A DNA stretch of 64,000 nucleotides from Ignavibacteria bacterium (lineage in GTDB: Bacteria; Bacteroidota; Ignavibacteria; UBA10030), in the NCBI GenBank assembly GCA_016873805.1, contig VGVZ01000001.1:124001-188000 (forward strand). The letters run 5' to 3'. Both the position numbers and the translations under genes were made by a program. The notes beneath the pieces were generated by a model. The model was not told the origin of the DNA and ran no database searches. It was given only the letters and a program-made list of their open reading frames with translations. Positions 4,438-42,177 of the stretch are shown piece by piece (positions within the stretch are counted from its first letter, which is position 1; every line of letters begins with the position of its first letter).

Positions 4438-4914
4438 GAGTTATTGGAGACTTCCTTTCAATGAAAGCTGAGCAGATGCGTCGGACACGGGAACATGTTC
4501 TGACTGTGGGATGGCATCGCTCAACGGGGAGATCCTTTGAACCGATGTCGACATGTCATACGAAAGAAGGGAGAGCCGTGTCCTTCAGAGTGTGTCCAAC
4601 ATTCCCCGATGTTCTTTTCTTGAGCGATGAGATGGCGAGAGCGAATTGGGGGAATTTGAGAGTTCAATACGTTGCTCAGACGAATGCGACGAAAACTTAC
4701 CTAAAAATCGAGGGAAAATCAAGAAATGAAAAGCCAAGTGAGACAGCGAACGAATGCAAGTTTACGGATGGTCTCCAATGATTTCTCTTTGGAGATGCAG
4801 CATTTATTCATTACTTTTGTTTTGGTTTTGATGCAGAAATCTTCGCTATGGAGTGATGTTCCCATACCCAGGCGGAATCCTCACTCCAACATCTGCAATC
4901 GAAAATTCCTATTT
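4438..4914. other. Non-coding stretch upstream of psd
   Basis: No convincing gene on either strand. The open frames here have no family signature and no good ribosome site. The stretch should hold the promoter of the psd-to-tatA run, which is transcribed leftward, but I cannot point to a clear -10/-35 pair. Confidence 0.4.
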
Positions 4915-5239
4915 GCCCCGTGTCCTTCGTCAAGCTCAGGACACGCGCAGGTGAGAATGCCTTGTGGTGTCCTTCGTCAAGCTCAGGACACGCGCAGGTG
5001 AGAATGCCTTGTGGTGTCCTTCGGCCGTTCGACAGGACTTCGACGAGTCAGTCGAGTCGCTCACGGCTCAGGACACGCGCAGGTGAGAATGCCCCGTGGT
5101 GTAACTCTTGCCCGCCAATCTTACCTGTCCGCCATCTTTGTGGCGGAATGGCGGGGGCAACACGTCTAGCGAGGTTTTTCTGAATCTTATTTTGCCCCGT
5201 GGTGTCCTTCGTCAAGCTCAGGACACGCGCAGGTGAGAA
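4915..5239 (+). repeat. Tandem repeats made from the 5' end of tRNA-Gln joined to a REP-like sequence
   Basis: A unit built of TTCGTCAAGCTCAGGAC, then CACGCGCAGGTGAGAAT, then GCC(CC/TT)GTGGTGT recurs at about 4915, 4959 and 5190. A longer variant occupies 5006-5089. The last part is the first 12 bases of the tRNA-Gln gene that follows at 5240, and GGTGAGAAT is the same 5' flank. The tRNA 5' end plus its flank has therefore been duplicated several times around a short palindromic repeat. Confidence 0.8.
5090..5167 (+). pseudogene. tRNA-Gln 5'-half copy split by a palindromic insertion
   Basis: Bases 5090-5106 are identical to the first 17 bases of the intact tRNA-Gln at 5240. The tRNA sequence resumes at about 5155 with GGCAACACGTCT and then stops matching. 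Between them, about 48 bp (5107-5154) form a nested palindrome with outer arms TGCCCGCCA/TGGCGGG and inner arms TCCGCCA/TGGCGGA. The insertion point is in the D-loop. The copy lacks the anticodon loop and 3' half, so it cannot be a working tRNA. Confidence 0.75.
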
Positions 5240-5311
5240 TGCCCCGTGGTGTAACTGGCAACACGTCTGACTCTGGATCAGAAGAGTCCAGGTTCGAGCC
5301 CTGGCGGGGCA
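5240..5311 (+). tRNA. tRNA-Gln (anticodon CTG)
   Basis: A full cloverleaf can be drawn. The acceptor pairs TGCCCCG with CGGGGCA. The D-arm is GTGT...ACAC and the anticodon arm TCTGA/TCAGA. The seven-base loop CTCTGGA places CTG at positions 34-36. The T-arm is CCAGG-TTCGAGC-CCTGG. CCA is not encoded. The anticodon reads CAG codons. Confidence 0.95.
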
Positions 5312-5426: not shown

Positions 5427-5499
5427 GGCCCTATCGTCTAAGGGTTTAGGACGCGGCCCTCTCAAGGCCGAAATACGGGTTCGAATCCCGTTAGGGCTA
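5427..5499 (+). tRNA. tRNA-Glu (anticodon CTC), integration target
   Basis: The acceptor arm pairs GGCCCTA with TAGGGCT, and the discriminator A is at 5499. The D-arm is GTC...GAC and the anticodon arm CGGCC/GGCCG. The loop CTCTCAA gives anticodon CTC. The T-arm is ACGGG-TTCGAAT-CCCGT. Its last 16 or so bases (AATCCCGTTAGGGCTA) recur at the end of each 358-bp unit downstream and in part at 41854 and 42165. This makes the tRNA 3' end the likely attachment site of the island. Confidence 0.95.
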
Positions 5500-5500
5500 C

Positions 5501-5858
5501 TCCCAAAACGACAGAACTTAGCGAGCCTTTCAGGGCGAAGCTAAGTTCTTTGTCGTTTTGAGGATCCCGTCGATCCGCCGCAGGCGGAGAGACGGGAGCT
5601 GCCCCGCAAAGTCGACGACACGAGTTAGCTGCTTGTGATATCAGAGCGGCTACCTCGTTTGTCGTTTTGAGGAGTTAGCGAGTCCGTCAGGACGAAGCTA
5701 ACTCTTTGTTGTTTCGCGCGTCCCGACGATGCCGCGTTTCTCAGCGTCCCGACATTTTTCAGTCGGGATTGTCGGGACCAGACGCACGGGTTCTCCGCCT
5801 ACGCTTGAACAACAGCTTCGGCGGATCTCACTTCGTTCGAGAATCCCGTTAGGGCTAC
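5501..5858 (+). repeat. 358-bp palindrome-rich unit, copy 1
   Basis: First of two head-to-tail copies that look identical by eye. It is a string of hairpins: AAAACGACAGAACTTAGC pairing with GCTAAGTTCTTTGTCGTTTT; CCCGTC/GACGGG enclosing TCCGCC/GGCGGA; AGTTAGC/GCTAACT; and GTCCCGACA/TGTCGGGAC. It ends with GAGAATCCCGTTAGGGCTAC, a near copy of the tRNA-Glu 3' end. No gene is recognised in it. Confidence 0.9.
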
Positions 5859-6216
5859 TCCCAAAACGACAGAACTTAGCGAGCCTTTCAGGGCGAAGCT
5901 AAGTTCTTTGTCGTTTTGAGGATCCCGTCGATCCGCCGCAGGCGGAGAGACGGGAGCTGCCCCGCAAAGTCGACGACACGAGTTAGCTGCTTGTGATATC
6001 AGAGCGGCTACCTCGTTTGTCGTTTTGAGGAGTTAGCGAGTCCGTCAGGACGAAGCTAACTCTTTGTTGTTTCGCGCGTCCCGACGATGCCGCGTTTCTC
6101 AGCGTCCCGACATTTTTCAGTCGGGATTGTCGGGACCAGACGCACGGGTTCTCCGCCTACGCTTGAACAACAGCTTCGGCGGATCTCACTTCGTTCGAGA
6201 ATCCCGTTAGGGCTAC
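5859..6216 (+). repeat. 358-bp palindrome-rich unit, copy 2
   Basis: Tandem repeat of 5501-5858, again closed by the tRNA-Glu 3'-end sequence at 6199-6216. The offset between matching bases is exactly 358 at both boundaries checked. The recombinase remnant begins immediately after it. Confidence 0.9.
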
Positions 6217-34039: not shown

Positions 34040-34674
34040 GATTCCTTTTCTTTAACAATGCGGCGAGATTCTTGCGGACGATCGCAAGTCAGGTTTCGCC
34101 TTCCCCGTTCGATTTGCAGTCTTCTCAGCAATCATCCAGGATTCGTTACTTGATGAAACATCGGTACTTACGGGCGGGAGACACAACGAAACGACGCGAC
34201 AAAGTAGGAAACTACTGCGAAGAAATCAATTTTGAACCGTTTATCCGTTATGAACCAGTAGTAGTGTCAGTTGTCATATTAACAACGTCCAAATGGGAGA
34301 GGACAAATCAGCACCGAGCTGCGCTTGCCCCGCGAAGGCCTGTTTGCCTGTGCAAACGGGCAGGCGGAAGAAGCCCACCAAAAGGTGAAGCATAGCGGGT
34401 AAACGGGGAATTGGCACAAAAACGAGTGTCCGGTGACGTGCCTGCACGCCGAAGTTTGTTCTACACAGGTGTTTCGGCACGTCCGCCTTCCGCAAGCGTG
34501 CGGCGGACAGGCAGGCGTGTGTCGAGGGATGATAGGTTTGTGCCAAGACCAGGCCGTTGTTTGGGCTGGACAAGCGCGCCTTCGTCCGACAGAAGCGGAC
34601 TCCGGCGGTTAAACGCATTTGGGACAATAGAGAGGGAGTCCGCCTATGCTTCAGAATAACAGCTTCGGCGGGGG
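34040..34674. other. Intergenic region with probable operon promoter and palindromic repeats
   Basis: No supported gene. The left 200 bp should carry the promoter of the leftward LuxR/Liv run. Palindromes lie at 34338-34366 (GCCTG...CAGGC) and 34437-34519. The latter is the CGTGCCTGCACGCCGAAGT ... GCGGCGGACAGGCAGGCGTG element that returns at 36644-36740 and, as a half copy, at 39235. Confidence 0.5.
34437..34519. repeat. 83-bp GC-rich palindromic element, copy 1
   Basis: Starts CGTGCCTGCACGCCGAAGT and ends GCGGCGGACAGGCAGGCGTG. The two outer ends match 36644-36740 almost base for base, while the middle (about 20 bp) differs. Internal arms GTCCGCC/GGCGGAC can pair. Confidence 0.75.
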
Positions 34675-34872
34675 TCAAAACGGCACTCCCTCGCCGATCA
34701 TTGTCTCGAGCTTTTGGATAAGCAGATTGTTCTGCTCAACTGCTCGTTGGGCAAGCTCTCGAACGATGTCGAGCCTGCACGAGCCGAATTGATTGAGATA
34801 CTGGTCGCGCTCGGATTCGAGCGACTGAATGAGATAGCGAATTTCTTCAGGTGTCAGTTCGATGGTTGTCAT
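34675..34872 (-). CDS. Small conserved-looking hypothetical protein
   Basis: Sixty-five residues, MTTIELTPEEIRYLIQSLES, mostly alpha-helical with charged residues. A strong AAAGGAG lies 6-7 bases before the ATG, which is the main reason to believe the gene. No family is recognised. Palindromic repeats flank it on both sides. Confidence 0.55.
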   Translation of the reverse strand: MTTIELTPEEIRYLIQSLESERDQYLNQFGSCRLDIVRELAQRAVEQNNLLIQKLETMIGEGVPF

Positions 34873-35163
34873 AAAGTTCTCCTTTGATTCTGATCCCGCT
34901 TCACGTTTCAGGCGTTGAGAGCGGGATCCTCAACTTGACGACAGAGTTAGCTTCCCCCGACAAGTCGGGGTCGCTAACTCTGGTCAAGTTGGGACCTCTT
35001 CCGGTGTGAATTGGATTGTGATCCTGGATCCTCCTTATGTTTCAGATCCCGCTATCGGGGGTTTAGCCGTGAGGCGGGATTCTCAATTTGACATCATCGT
35101 TAGTCCCGCTCTTGGATTTTGCATATTAGCGGGATTCCAGAAAGCGGAACTTCACTGCGTTCA
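34873..35163. repeat. Two composite double-hairpin palindromes
   Basis: Unit A (about 34900-34990) has GATCCCGCT ... AGCGGGATC, then CAACTTGAC...GTCAAGTTG enclosing GAGTTAGC...GCTAACTC and CCCCGAC/GTCGGGG. Unit B (about 35040-35190) has GATCCCGC ... GCGGGAT, then CAATTTGAC...GTCAAATTG enclosing GTTAGT...ACTAAC, and reaches into the end of the next gene. The layout matches the 358-bp unit at 5501 in reverse orientation, with different but still complementary arm sequences. Confidence 0.75.
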
Positions 35164-35607
35164 CTAACGCTGGTCAAATTGGAATTTCCTCCAAGCTGAA
35201 ATGATTTGTTCTATGGTTCTTATACCAACCTTGGGAAGGTAGTAGACCTCAAGCCACGTCTTGTAGGGACGGCTGGTGACAATGATTTCTATGCGGGCGG
35301 AGTTGATGCGTTCCTGAGAGAGAAGCTGCCAGAGCCGTGAAGTGGGCGTTTCGTTGAGCCAATTGAGACAAGCTCTTGCTTCATCATCGTCAGTGAACGG
35401 AAGTAGAATCTCGTCGTAACGAGTGCCCTGTTGCTCTATGTATGCGGGATGTGGTGCTCTGGGTATGTGCGGTGTGGGATTTGGATTGACGATGTAGGCG
35501 ATGATGCCAACAATGACCGCGAGTATTATGAGGGAGAATGTGAGCAAGTCACCGACTTCCGGATGGAGTTGCCTGACTCGCTTTCTCAAGCGTGGGCTGT
35601 ATTCCAT
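35164..35607 (-). CDS. Hypothetical protein with one membrane helix
   Basis: From the ATG at 35607, 147 residues. A basic start (MEYSPRLRKRVRQLHPEVGD) is followed by one membrane helix (LLTFSLIILAVIVGIIAYIV) and then a soluble domain, DEILLPFTDDDEARACLNWL ... SARIEIIVTSRPYKTWLEV. No family is recognised. A GGAG lies about 20 bases upstream, which is too far to fix the start. The last codons run into palindrome unit B. Confidence 0.5.
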   Translation of the reverse strand: MEYSPRLRKRVRQLHPEVGDLLTFSLIILAVIVGIIAYIVNPNPTPHIPRAPHPAYIEQQGTRYDEILLPFTDDDEARACLNWLNETPTSRLWQLLSQERINSARIEIIVTSRPYKTWLEVYYLPKVGIRTIEQIISAWRKFQFDQR

Positions 35608-36374
35608 CCACGTGATGGACTCGTAAAACTCCTTCAACCCCGTTAACGGGGTAAACTGTTTCGTCAGTGACTTGGCCCGCCAAACAGACGGCGGGCAGGG
35701 CTGCCACTGAAACGCAGACTGACCAGCAACCTGAACGGCACGCCACGAGCCACGACCGAGGCGAGGCAAACGGGCGGGAGAGAAACCGACGCAGAAGACG
35801 AAGACCGACACGCCGAGACAAGCAGCTAGACGGCAAGCGAGCAGAGAGCCACGGGACTTGCGAGACGAGAGAAAGCAGACGAGAGCGGAAGGACGGGCCC
35901 CCGCCTGACCGGCGGGCAGGTGAGCGAGAAAGCGAACGAGCGCAACAGACCGGCCGGCGAGACGCAGCCGCAGCGGAACACCGAGGCGACCCCCAGCCCA
36001 CCAAGCAACGGAAGTGATATCCCGCTGATCGAAAGCGTGGTCGGCCTTCTTGTTTTGGTCACACAGCCTCCCTTAACATATTCTGCCTGATCGCCGATTA
36101 TTGTGCTGCGCCGCTACGAAAAACCCGTAGAGTTAGCTCGCTGAGGGCTTTCTTCCCTACGGGTCACCTGCCCGACTACGTCGTTCGGGCGGGTTGCTCC
36201 ATTCCTCGAAATGGCTCAAGAGAGTGGAACAGATATCTTATGAAATCTTACTCTCTCCCTCCTCTGCTCAGCACGTCCGGTTCGCCTTCAGTAGTGAAAT
36301 GTCTGCGATGGGCGAGTATTAAGGTAAAACAAAATCGTGCAAAAACAATTTGTCGGTCGTTAACCCCTCCCTGA
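35608..36374. other. Non-coding stretch with a thymine-depleted segment and palindromes
   Basis: No believable gene: the long frames here on both strands are products of skewed composition. Bases 35701-36000 contain only nine T in 300, with T-free runs of 94 (35733-35826) and 93 (35922-36014) bases. A GC palindrome sits at 35897-35920 (CCCGCCTGACCGGCGGG), and hairpins occupy 36132-36200 (ACCCGTAG ... CTACGGGT and ACCTGCCCG ... CGGGCGGGT). Confidence 0.6.
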
Positions 36375-36643: not shown

Positions 36644-36740
36644 CGTGCCTGCACGCCGAAGTGTACTACTAACCTTTGAGATTGTACAACCGTTTCGGCA
36701 CGTCCGCCTTCCGCAAGCGTGCGGCGGACAGGCAGGCGTG
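36644..36740. repeat. GC-rich palindromic element, copy 2 (inside PLD gene)
   Basis: Same ends as the element at 34437-34519. It lies directly before the codons for AHNKVMIID of the PLD gene. A half copy sits at exactly the same place in a second PLD fragment at 39174-39253. Confidence 0.75.
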
Positions 36741-41853: not shown

Positions 41854-42177
41854 TTAGGGCTACTCCCAAAACGGCCCGCGAGCGTTGTGGGCGAGCGGCT
41901 GCCGTTTTGAGGATCCCGTCGATCCGCCGCAGGCGGAGAGACGGGAGCTGCCCCGCAAAGTCGACGACACGAGTTAGCTGCTTGTGATATCAGAGCGGCT
42001 ACCTCGTCTGTCGTTTTGAGGAGTTAGCGAGTCCGTCAGGACGAAAAAAACTCTTTGTTGTTTCGCGCGTCCCGACATTTTTCAGTCGGGATTGTCGGGA
42101 CCGGAAACACGGGTTCTCCGCCTACGCTTGAACAATAGCTTCGGCGGATCTCACTTCGTTCGAGAATCCCGTTAGGG
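41854..42177 (+). repeat. 358-bp-type unit, copy 3, with tRNA-Glu 3'-end sequence
   Basis: TTAGGGCTACTCCCAAAACG (41854-41873) is identical to 5491-5510. The first hairpin has changed to AAAACGGC...GCCGTTTT, keeping base pairing, and part of the GTCCCGACGATGCC segment is missing. It ends with GAGAATCCCGTTAGGG (up to 42177), again like the tRNA-Glu 3' end. It is the likely right attachment scar of the island. Confidence 0.85.

Follow-up and report, generated by a model that had tools for sequence, protein, structure and literature searches.

A double-hairpin repeat with covarying arms, probably a REP-like insertion element, at tRNA genes and gene ends in one bacterial order

The window, i.e. 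the whole 64,000-nucleotide stretch of DNA analysed here (G000:C1:124001-188000, from a source genome, G000, of 3,206,051 bases in 60 contigs), carries several copies of a double hairpin (Table 1). Two of them (34892-34995 and 35045-35184) are tandem units upstream of a minus-strand gene, and each consists of a first hairpin, a (T/C)CTC linker, and a second hairpin with locus-specific arms. The general layout is a hairpin 1 of the form TCCCG..CGGGA, a linker (T/C)(T/C)CTC or a close variant, and a hairpin 2 whose outer stem has variable arms ending in GAC / GTC and a 2-nt bulge on the 5' side. This outer stem encloses an inner stem around (G/C)TTAGC and then a loop, and the element ends in GGGA or GGAA. 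Hairpin 2 of copy 1 has the 2-nt 5' bulge, the inner stem CAGAGTTAGC/GCTAACTCTG, and the end GGGA; that of copy 2 has a long loop containing a further TCCCGCT/AGCGGGA palindrome, and the end GGAA. The 311 nt from 34885 to 35195 fold at -132 kcal/mol, compared with a mean of -95.7 (sd 5.7) for shuffled sequences, none of 100 being as good. No T run was seen by eye after the window copies. A minus-strand ORF (35164-35811) takes its final codons and its stop from hairpin 2 of copy 2, and an identical 49-nt repeat flanks the two-copy region (34471-34519 and 36692-36740).

The remaining window copies are tied to tRNA-Glu. Copy 3 shows hairpin 2 first and hairpin 1 second on the plus strand, and its arms AAAACGAC/GTCGTTTT (5505/5552) recur as the same pair at 5863/5910, in a second tandem unit that is identical to the first and was absent from the list of the first-pass annotation. 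The 358-bp unit is composed of the 3' part of tRNA-Glu and the element. Copy 4 (arms AAAACGGC/GCCGTTTT at 41868) sits in a fragment derived from tRNA-Glu, where no intact tRNA is present. The first-pass annotation had described the double-hairpin layout at several of these places; the layout is real there, with two more copies in the tRNA-Glu units, and small errors had to be corrected. The inner pair GTTAGC/GCTAAC that it gave for hairpin 2 holds for the copy at 34931 and for no other window copy: it is CGTTAG/CTAACG in the copy at 35084 and CTTAGC/GCTAAG in the tRNA-Glu copies, and the copy at 41868 has no inner stem of the GTTAGC type. The outer arms that it placed at about 35091 are indeed complementary and start at 35084. 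Shortly before tRNA-Gln, the window also holds 47-bp repeats GTGTCCTTCGTCAAGCTCAGGACACG.., both in tandem and dispersed (4911-5252).

Table 1. Element copies and associated features (window positions unless a contig is given)
Feature	Position	Strand	Remarks
Intact tRNA-Glu (CTC)	5427..5500	+	ARAGORN, Rfam
Tandem array	5483..6216	+	2.1 units of 358 bp, 100% matches (TRF)
Copy 3	5501..5599	-	directly after the tRNA-Glu 3' end; R1 90 bits
Copy 3'	5859..5957	-	in the second 358-bp tandem unit
Tandem pair of copies 1 and 2	34860..35205	+	left and right flanks also loosely alignable (pairwise alignment)
Copy 1, hairpin 1	34892..34928	+	GATCCCGCT..AGCGGGATC
Copy 1, hairpin 2	34931..34994	+	outer arms CAACTTGAC (34931) / GTCAAGTTG (34983); R1 78.3 bits
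Copy 2, hairpin 1	35045..35081	+	GATCCCGCT..AGGCGGGATT
Copy 2, hairpin 2	35084..35184	+	outer arms CAATTTGAC (35084) / GTCAAATTG (35173); R1 52.4 bits
Copy 4	41864..41948	-	arms CAAAACGGC/GCCGTTTTG; R1 54.9 bits
GIY-YIG/tRNA place	G000:C7:49343-50014		
GIY-YIG/tRNA place	G000:C13:76685-77583		
GIY-YIG/tRNA place	G000:C14:65616-66033		
GIY-YIG/tRNA place	G000:C16:348-850		
GIY-YIG/tRNA place	G000:C22:41205-41924		

We searched the source genome with the linker pattern GGGATYCTCAANNNGAC, which involves no folding criterion. All 11 exact matches have a complementary arm, defined as a Watson-Crick complement at 8-9 of 9 positions of the arm within 120 nt. The 10 matches with one mismatch comprise 3 with such an arm and 7 without, a tally that still counts those in which no hairpin was seen by eye and which were then dropped (L021, L022, L023, L027, L029). 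At two mismatches or fewer, the pattern gave 109 matches vs 14 for the reversed pattern; many of the two-mismatch matches were dropped because they resemble coding sequence. A covariance model built from 8 paired copies (R1) has 30 matches in the source genome at E<=1, of which 22 are at E<=2.8e-4, and matches 32 of 41 genomes (the source genome and 40 relatives) at E<=0.01. In a sample of the phylum, searched with strict filters that may lose weak matches outside the order, R1 matched 8 of 198 genomes at E<=1e-5, every one from the same order, which has 9 members among the phylum-sample genomes listed. The element was found here only within this one bacterial order. It is non-coding, about 75-140 bp long, and has the ends TCCC/TTCC and GGGA/GGAA in most copies (3' ends GGGA in 63 and GGAA in 36 of 137). 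The tag beside the stem is CCTC in 50, TCTC in 36, and CCGC in 13 of the 137 copies, others being fewer, and the 2-nt 5' bulge is present in 116 of 131 aligned rows. The outer stem has 9 columns, with A.U at the second and third pairs in 115 and 105 of the 129 rows with letters; the inner stem has 10 pairs, and the loops are mostly of 12-22 nt. Local amplification is seen as tandem units, which are often identical or equal in score.

The arms vary strongly and remain complementary. Among 131 distinct rows, 97.1% of 2360 cells are paired and 646 cells are altered on both sides, such changes affecting 18 of the 19 stem pairs at least once. The covariation score is 0.646, vs a mean of 0.166 after shuffling and at most 0.141 with slid partners. 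Absolute pairing values lean upwards because the alignment was fitted to the R1 structure and the copies were found by R1; the structure-blind linker-pattern set serves as the control for this bias. The excess of paired substitutions among genome-wide copies, on which the first-pass annotation had staked its proposal beforehand, is thus very large. Its suggestion that the folded form matters is partly supported, and the substitution spectrum favours DNA over RNA. The arm cells comprise 2272 Watson-Crick pairs, 19 G.U pairs, and 69 other mismatches (G.U in 19 of 88 non-Watson-Crick cells), vs 591, 25, and 0 in the tRNA acceptor stems of the same loci (88 distinct), for which the offset was set for best pairing and so favours the tRNA in this comparison. 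Since G.U is not preferred over other mismatches, DNA palindromes fit these data better than selection on an RNA. Template switching can homogenise arms and give paired changes without selection, according to the part of PMC8794818 available to us, so that covariation alone is no proof of function. The excess of paired changes is also seen at one orthologous place: among 29 tRNA-Phe leaders examined, 10 have a TCCT linker and an arm that pairs at 8-9 of 9 positions with the nine bases preceding the tRNA, in several different arm sequences; shuffled leaders gave at least 7 pairs in 191 of 1450 trials.

Copies are found directly at tRNA ends, or within partial tandem duplicates of a tRNA gene or of the end of a protein gene. 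In the relatives, 100 loci drawn from the better-scoring R1 matches, with L250-L256 left out, hold 135 copies. Of these copies, 84 have a tRNA called by ARAGORN no more than 300 bp away, 68 no more than 100 bp away, and 21 no more than 10 bp away. Counted by locus, a tRNA lies within 300 bp in 64 and within 10 bp in 20. The corresponding distances in the source genome hold for 16 (300 bp), 10 (100 bp), and 2 (10 bp) of 30 copies, and a tRNA lies within 300 bp at 9 of its 14 loci, vs 0 of 36 Y1-transposase loci and 0 of 9 chance-pattern loci. Opposite-strand shadow matches and matches under about 50 nt were left out of the flank, breakpoint, and tRNA-distance counts, as were duplicate loci of the source genome (L131, L134, L136, L138, and, for breakpoints and tRNA distance, L153). 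Four arrangements recur at tRNAs: hairpin 2 immediately 3' of the tRNA; an intact tRNA followed by a few bases, hairpin 1 of the element, and then a 3' fragment of that same tRNA; a 5' fragment followed by the element and the intact tRNA; and the element in the tRNA-Phe leader. Both orientations of the element occur at tRNA 3' ends. The same layout is found at protein-gene ends, among them L154, L239, and the 5' ends of kinase genes in L135, L240, and L247 (gene names assigned by eye). One relative (G029) has copies inside GCCTAAC..GTTAGGC sites, attC-like in appearance, which are about 950 bp apart with ORFs between them; an integron integrase above the TIGR02249 family cut-off is encoded on another contig of this genome. 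AttC-like sites holding the element were seen at L180 (G029:C30), which resembles an integron cassette array, and at L162 and L222.

In 60 of 146 copies, the right flank can be matched to sequence on the left side of the element (0 in the reversed control, 3 in the swapped-locus control), some of these matches, in arrays, being the neighbouring unit; 45 of the 60 begin at the first base past the element, and in the other 86 copies no duplicated flank reached the score used. This test started from 167 copies, of which 13 were set aside for a lost hairpin 1 call and a further 8 for flanks that were too short. At the loci that were read, the bases preceding hairpin 1 belong to the same gene as those of the right flank, hence the insertion there is clean. 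The junctions, such as GGTTTC-element-CTAAACC in tRNA-Arg and CAG-element-CTGG in tRNA-Val, have flanks that are contiguous in a nearby intact copy of the gene, which at these loci corresponds to insertion without target-site duplication. At tRNA-Phe, GAATTT..GGA recurs in the flank, a repeat that might represent a short target duplication. We rejected the idea that the arms are copies of the target, suggested by tRNA-Phe, because arm and left flank do not match at tRNA-Val or tRNA-Arg. A long staggered target duplication was also rejected: at the 3' loci, inspected by eye, the spacer past the intact tRNA is not clearly repeated past the fragment. Such a repeat does occur at the tRNA-Asp with a GIY-YIG gene. 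The tRNA breakpoints (49 rows, in which tandem units and orthologous places count singly and are not independent events) fall at nt 15 in the D-loop in 15 rows, at nt 33-37 in 11 and nt 39-41 in 7 (anticodon loop and its edge), and are scattered in 16.

Partial tRNA copies extend beyond the element. A partial copy lies within 600 bp of 12 of the 40 tRNA genes examined in the source genome (45 were found), vs 0 in the reversed control; loci of such partial tandem copies include L323, L342, L118, L317, L336, L341, L328, and L354. Those that we read out carry palindromes inserted at or close to the D-, anticodon, or T-loop; some of these inserts are unmatched by R1, and several are unrelated to the element. 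The tRNA fragments thus house several kinds of palindrome, of which the element is one, and it may have only a part in some broader process. Beside a tRNA-Ser (L357, bases about 1100-1360) there are tandem units of about 60 bp with GTCCCGA/TCGGGAC palindromes. The presence of the element differs between congeners at tRNA-Phe: G002 is filled and G017 is empty, with the sequence GGAAGAATTTTC-GGACAGG, and G007 is filled and G024 is empty. It also persists at the orthologous tRNA-Phe and tRNA-Val places in several genera.

The element works like a REP or a miniature transposon, and it resembles several known classes in part. The E. coli tyrT distal repeats (rtT) are tandem units that start from the 3' end of the tRNA before them, as are the tandem units of the element; unlike rtT, the latter measure about 116-358 bp, occur at many tRNAs and at 5' as well as 3' ends, and contain a double hairpin. 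Rickettsia palindromic elements (RPE) are palindromic insertions that end up inside genes, and copy 2 likewise supplies the end of an ORF in the window, a likeness in description. Integron attC sites are variable palindromes with a conserved fold. The element is a guest in attC-like sites (G029) and is not itself one, because it ends in TCCC/GGGA or close variants and not in GCCTAAC/GTTAGGC (the RYYYAAC/GTTRRRY boxes). Nor does it classify as a MITE of a DDE transposon, defined by TIR and target-site duplication, as no duplication was found at its ends in the loci read, tRNA-Phe being ambiguous. With the GTAG REPs that accompany RAYT genes (REPtrons) it shares dispersed imperfect palindromes. 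It differs from them in lacking a regular GTAG tag, since among 137 copies only 8 have GTAG and 7 have CTAC near a stem foot, and in having no RAYT gene at the copies. For REPs tagged with CGTC, the available part of the description (Di Nocera et al. 2013, PMC3733652) gives a tag CGTC (TGTC, CCTC), with CCTC as the variant in many repeats, a stem of 8-9 bp starting with A.T, a loop of 4-5 nt, and an unpaired tail that is mostly CCA. It reports these REPs, for which no transposase is known, from Chlorobi, Bacteroidetes, and other phyla, and describes REPs nested within other palindromes. Set against this partial description, the element shares the palindrome beside a 4-nt tag, an outer stem of similar length (8-9 bp) that begins with A.T pairs, and the lack of a known transposase. 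The identity of its tag gives a mixed picture, being CCTC in the 50 copies counted above and TCTC, CCGC, or another sequence in the others. It differs in having an inner stem, a loop larger than 4-5 nt, and a 2-nt bulge; in ending with GGGA/GGAA instead of CCA; in its regular neighbour hairpin 1; in reaching tens of copies per genome at most; and in sitting at tRNA genes with partial gene copies. Given these differences in loop and tail, and a RAYT association that is not found (see below), we do not file it as a CGTC or GTAG REP as defined in that part of PMC3733652. A literature search, mostly at the level of search results, found no account of hairpin repeats nesting in tRNA genes.

Taken together, we think that this is probably a REP-like, non-coding DNA-hairpin insertion element of one order, which favours tRNA genes and gene ends. 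It would enter DNA that is briefly single-stranded, at the loops or feet of hairpins such as the D- and anticodon arms of tRNA genes, attC sites, and other palindromes, and an enzyme encoded elsewhere would recognise the folded hairpin 2. An insertion into the body of a tRNA would be viable only if the gene had been partly duplicated, so that one copy stays whole. The arms would drift by mutation and stay complementary at the DNA level, upheld by template switching in the hairpin, by the need of the enzyme for a folded substrate, or by both. The persistence at orthologous tRNA-Phe and tRNA-Val places need not be expected of an inert insertion, and counts against this explanation. So do the copies with no duplicated flank, the hairpins unmatched by R1 in partial tRNA copies, the possible target duplication at tRNA-Phe, and the failure to find a mobilising enzyme. 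A more specific version, which we hold as a rather doubtful conjecture, is that the element recognises folded single strands and inserts into hairpin loops, in tRNA genes as well as attC sites, while duplicating the end of the gene and thereby preserving an intact tRNA. The tRNA-associated GIY-YIG nucleases might drive this process.

That the double hairpin acts in a transcript instead, in tRNA processing, termination, or mRNA stability, with selection on its RNA fold, seems unlikely to us. The strong covariation of the arms would fit it, as would the many copies that abut tRNAs, including the several paired arm sequences at the 5' end of tRNA-Phe. It is at odds with G.U pairs no commoner than other mismatches, with both orientations at tRNA 3' ends, and with the differing presence among congeners; moreover, Rfam at its gathering score identified two tRNAs and no other family in the window, and a known structured RNA family was rejected on this ground.

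The first-pass annotation had suggested a linked transposase or RAYT-like protein, and a REP moved by a RAYT or IS200-type HUH transposase is an explanation of similarly low probability. The bulged hairpin and the unpaired YCTC tag next to its stem recall tagged REPs, and the number of copies correlates with that of Y1_Tnp matches (rho 0.57 over 41 genomes and 0.65 within the family, both uncorrected for kinship). The suggested link is not supported at the loci themselves: only 1 of 36 Y1_Tnp loci, which are part of all Y1_Tnp matches, has a copy within about 1.5 kb, and the adjoining IS200-like gene seems unrelated. Three genomes have copies without a Y1_Tnp match (G018, G026, G029), and 7 have Y1 without copies. 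The RAYT-like gene of the source genome (L005, G000:C25) lies between tandem REPs of its own, with GTAG beside the hairpin, which are different from the element and unrelated to it.

Small GIY-YIG genes adjoin tRNAs in tandem copies, partly overlapping the tRNA sequence (L133, L347-L357), and 8 of the 11 in the source genome are at the 5 tRNA places of Table 1. A tRNA-targeting GIY-YIG nuclease might cut tRNA genes whose repair leaves partial tandem copies, into which hairpins are inserted or captured, the element being a non-autonomous passenger; this too we judge improbable. A tRNA lies within 300 bp of 13 of 41 GIY-YIG loci, vs none of the 36 Y1 loci, and the tRNA-Asp and tRNA-Pro loci of the source genome each have an intact tRNA together with a GIY-YIG gene and a hairpin-containing fragment of the tRNA. 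However, R1 matches only 4 of the 41 loci, two of which are one place, and protein-gene ends and attC-like sites also carry copies. No mobilising enzyme was found among the Y1_Tnp and GIY-YIG loci examined, and the small GIY-YIG genes that neighbour tRNAs are a possible lead.

Partial 3' tRNA halves starting in the anticodon loop resemble the att scars of integrases, which would suit an origin without any mobility, by hairpins growing in such scars through template-switch mutation. This is very unlikely even if template switching can create perfect stems, as the available part of PMC8794818 indicates, since de novo growth would not make one linker and one inner-stem sequence recur across many genera at places as unrelated as tRNA genes, protein genes, and attC-like sites, and the congeners G002 and G017 differ by a full element at the same locus.

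Palindromic repeats are common, and their insertion sites and manner of insertion are poorly known. Because many copies of this element, on our preferred reading a REP-like DNA insertion, lie in or beside tRNA genes whose fold and intact form are known, each breakpoint can be placed to the nucleotide and compared with the stems and loops. How perfect palindromes are kept up, whether through copying at the DNA level or because a folded substrate is selected, is a question for which the arms provide a natural test. Partial tRNA copies of this kind may mislead the annotation of tRNAs, att sites, and integrons. If insertion into the loop is indeed coupled to duplication of the gene end, then the partial tRNA copy, the insert in the loop, and the tandem growth would be the outcome of one mechanism.
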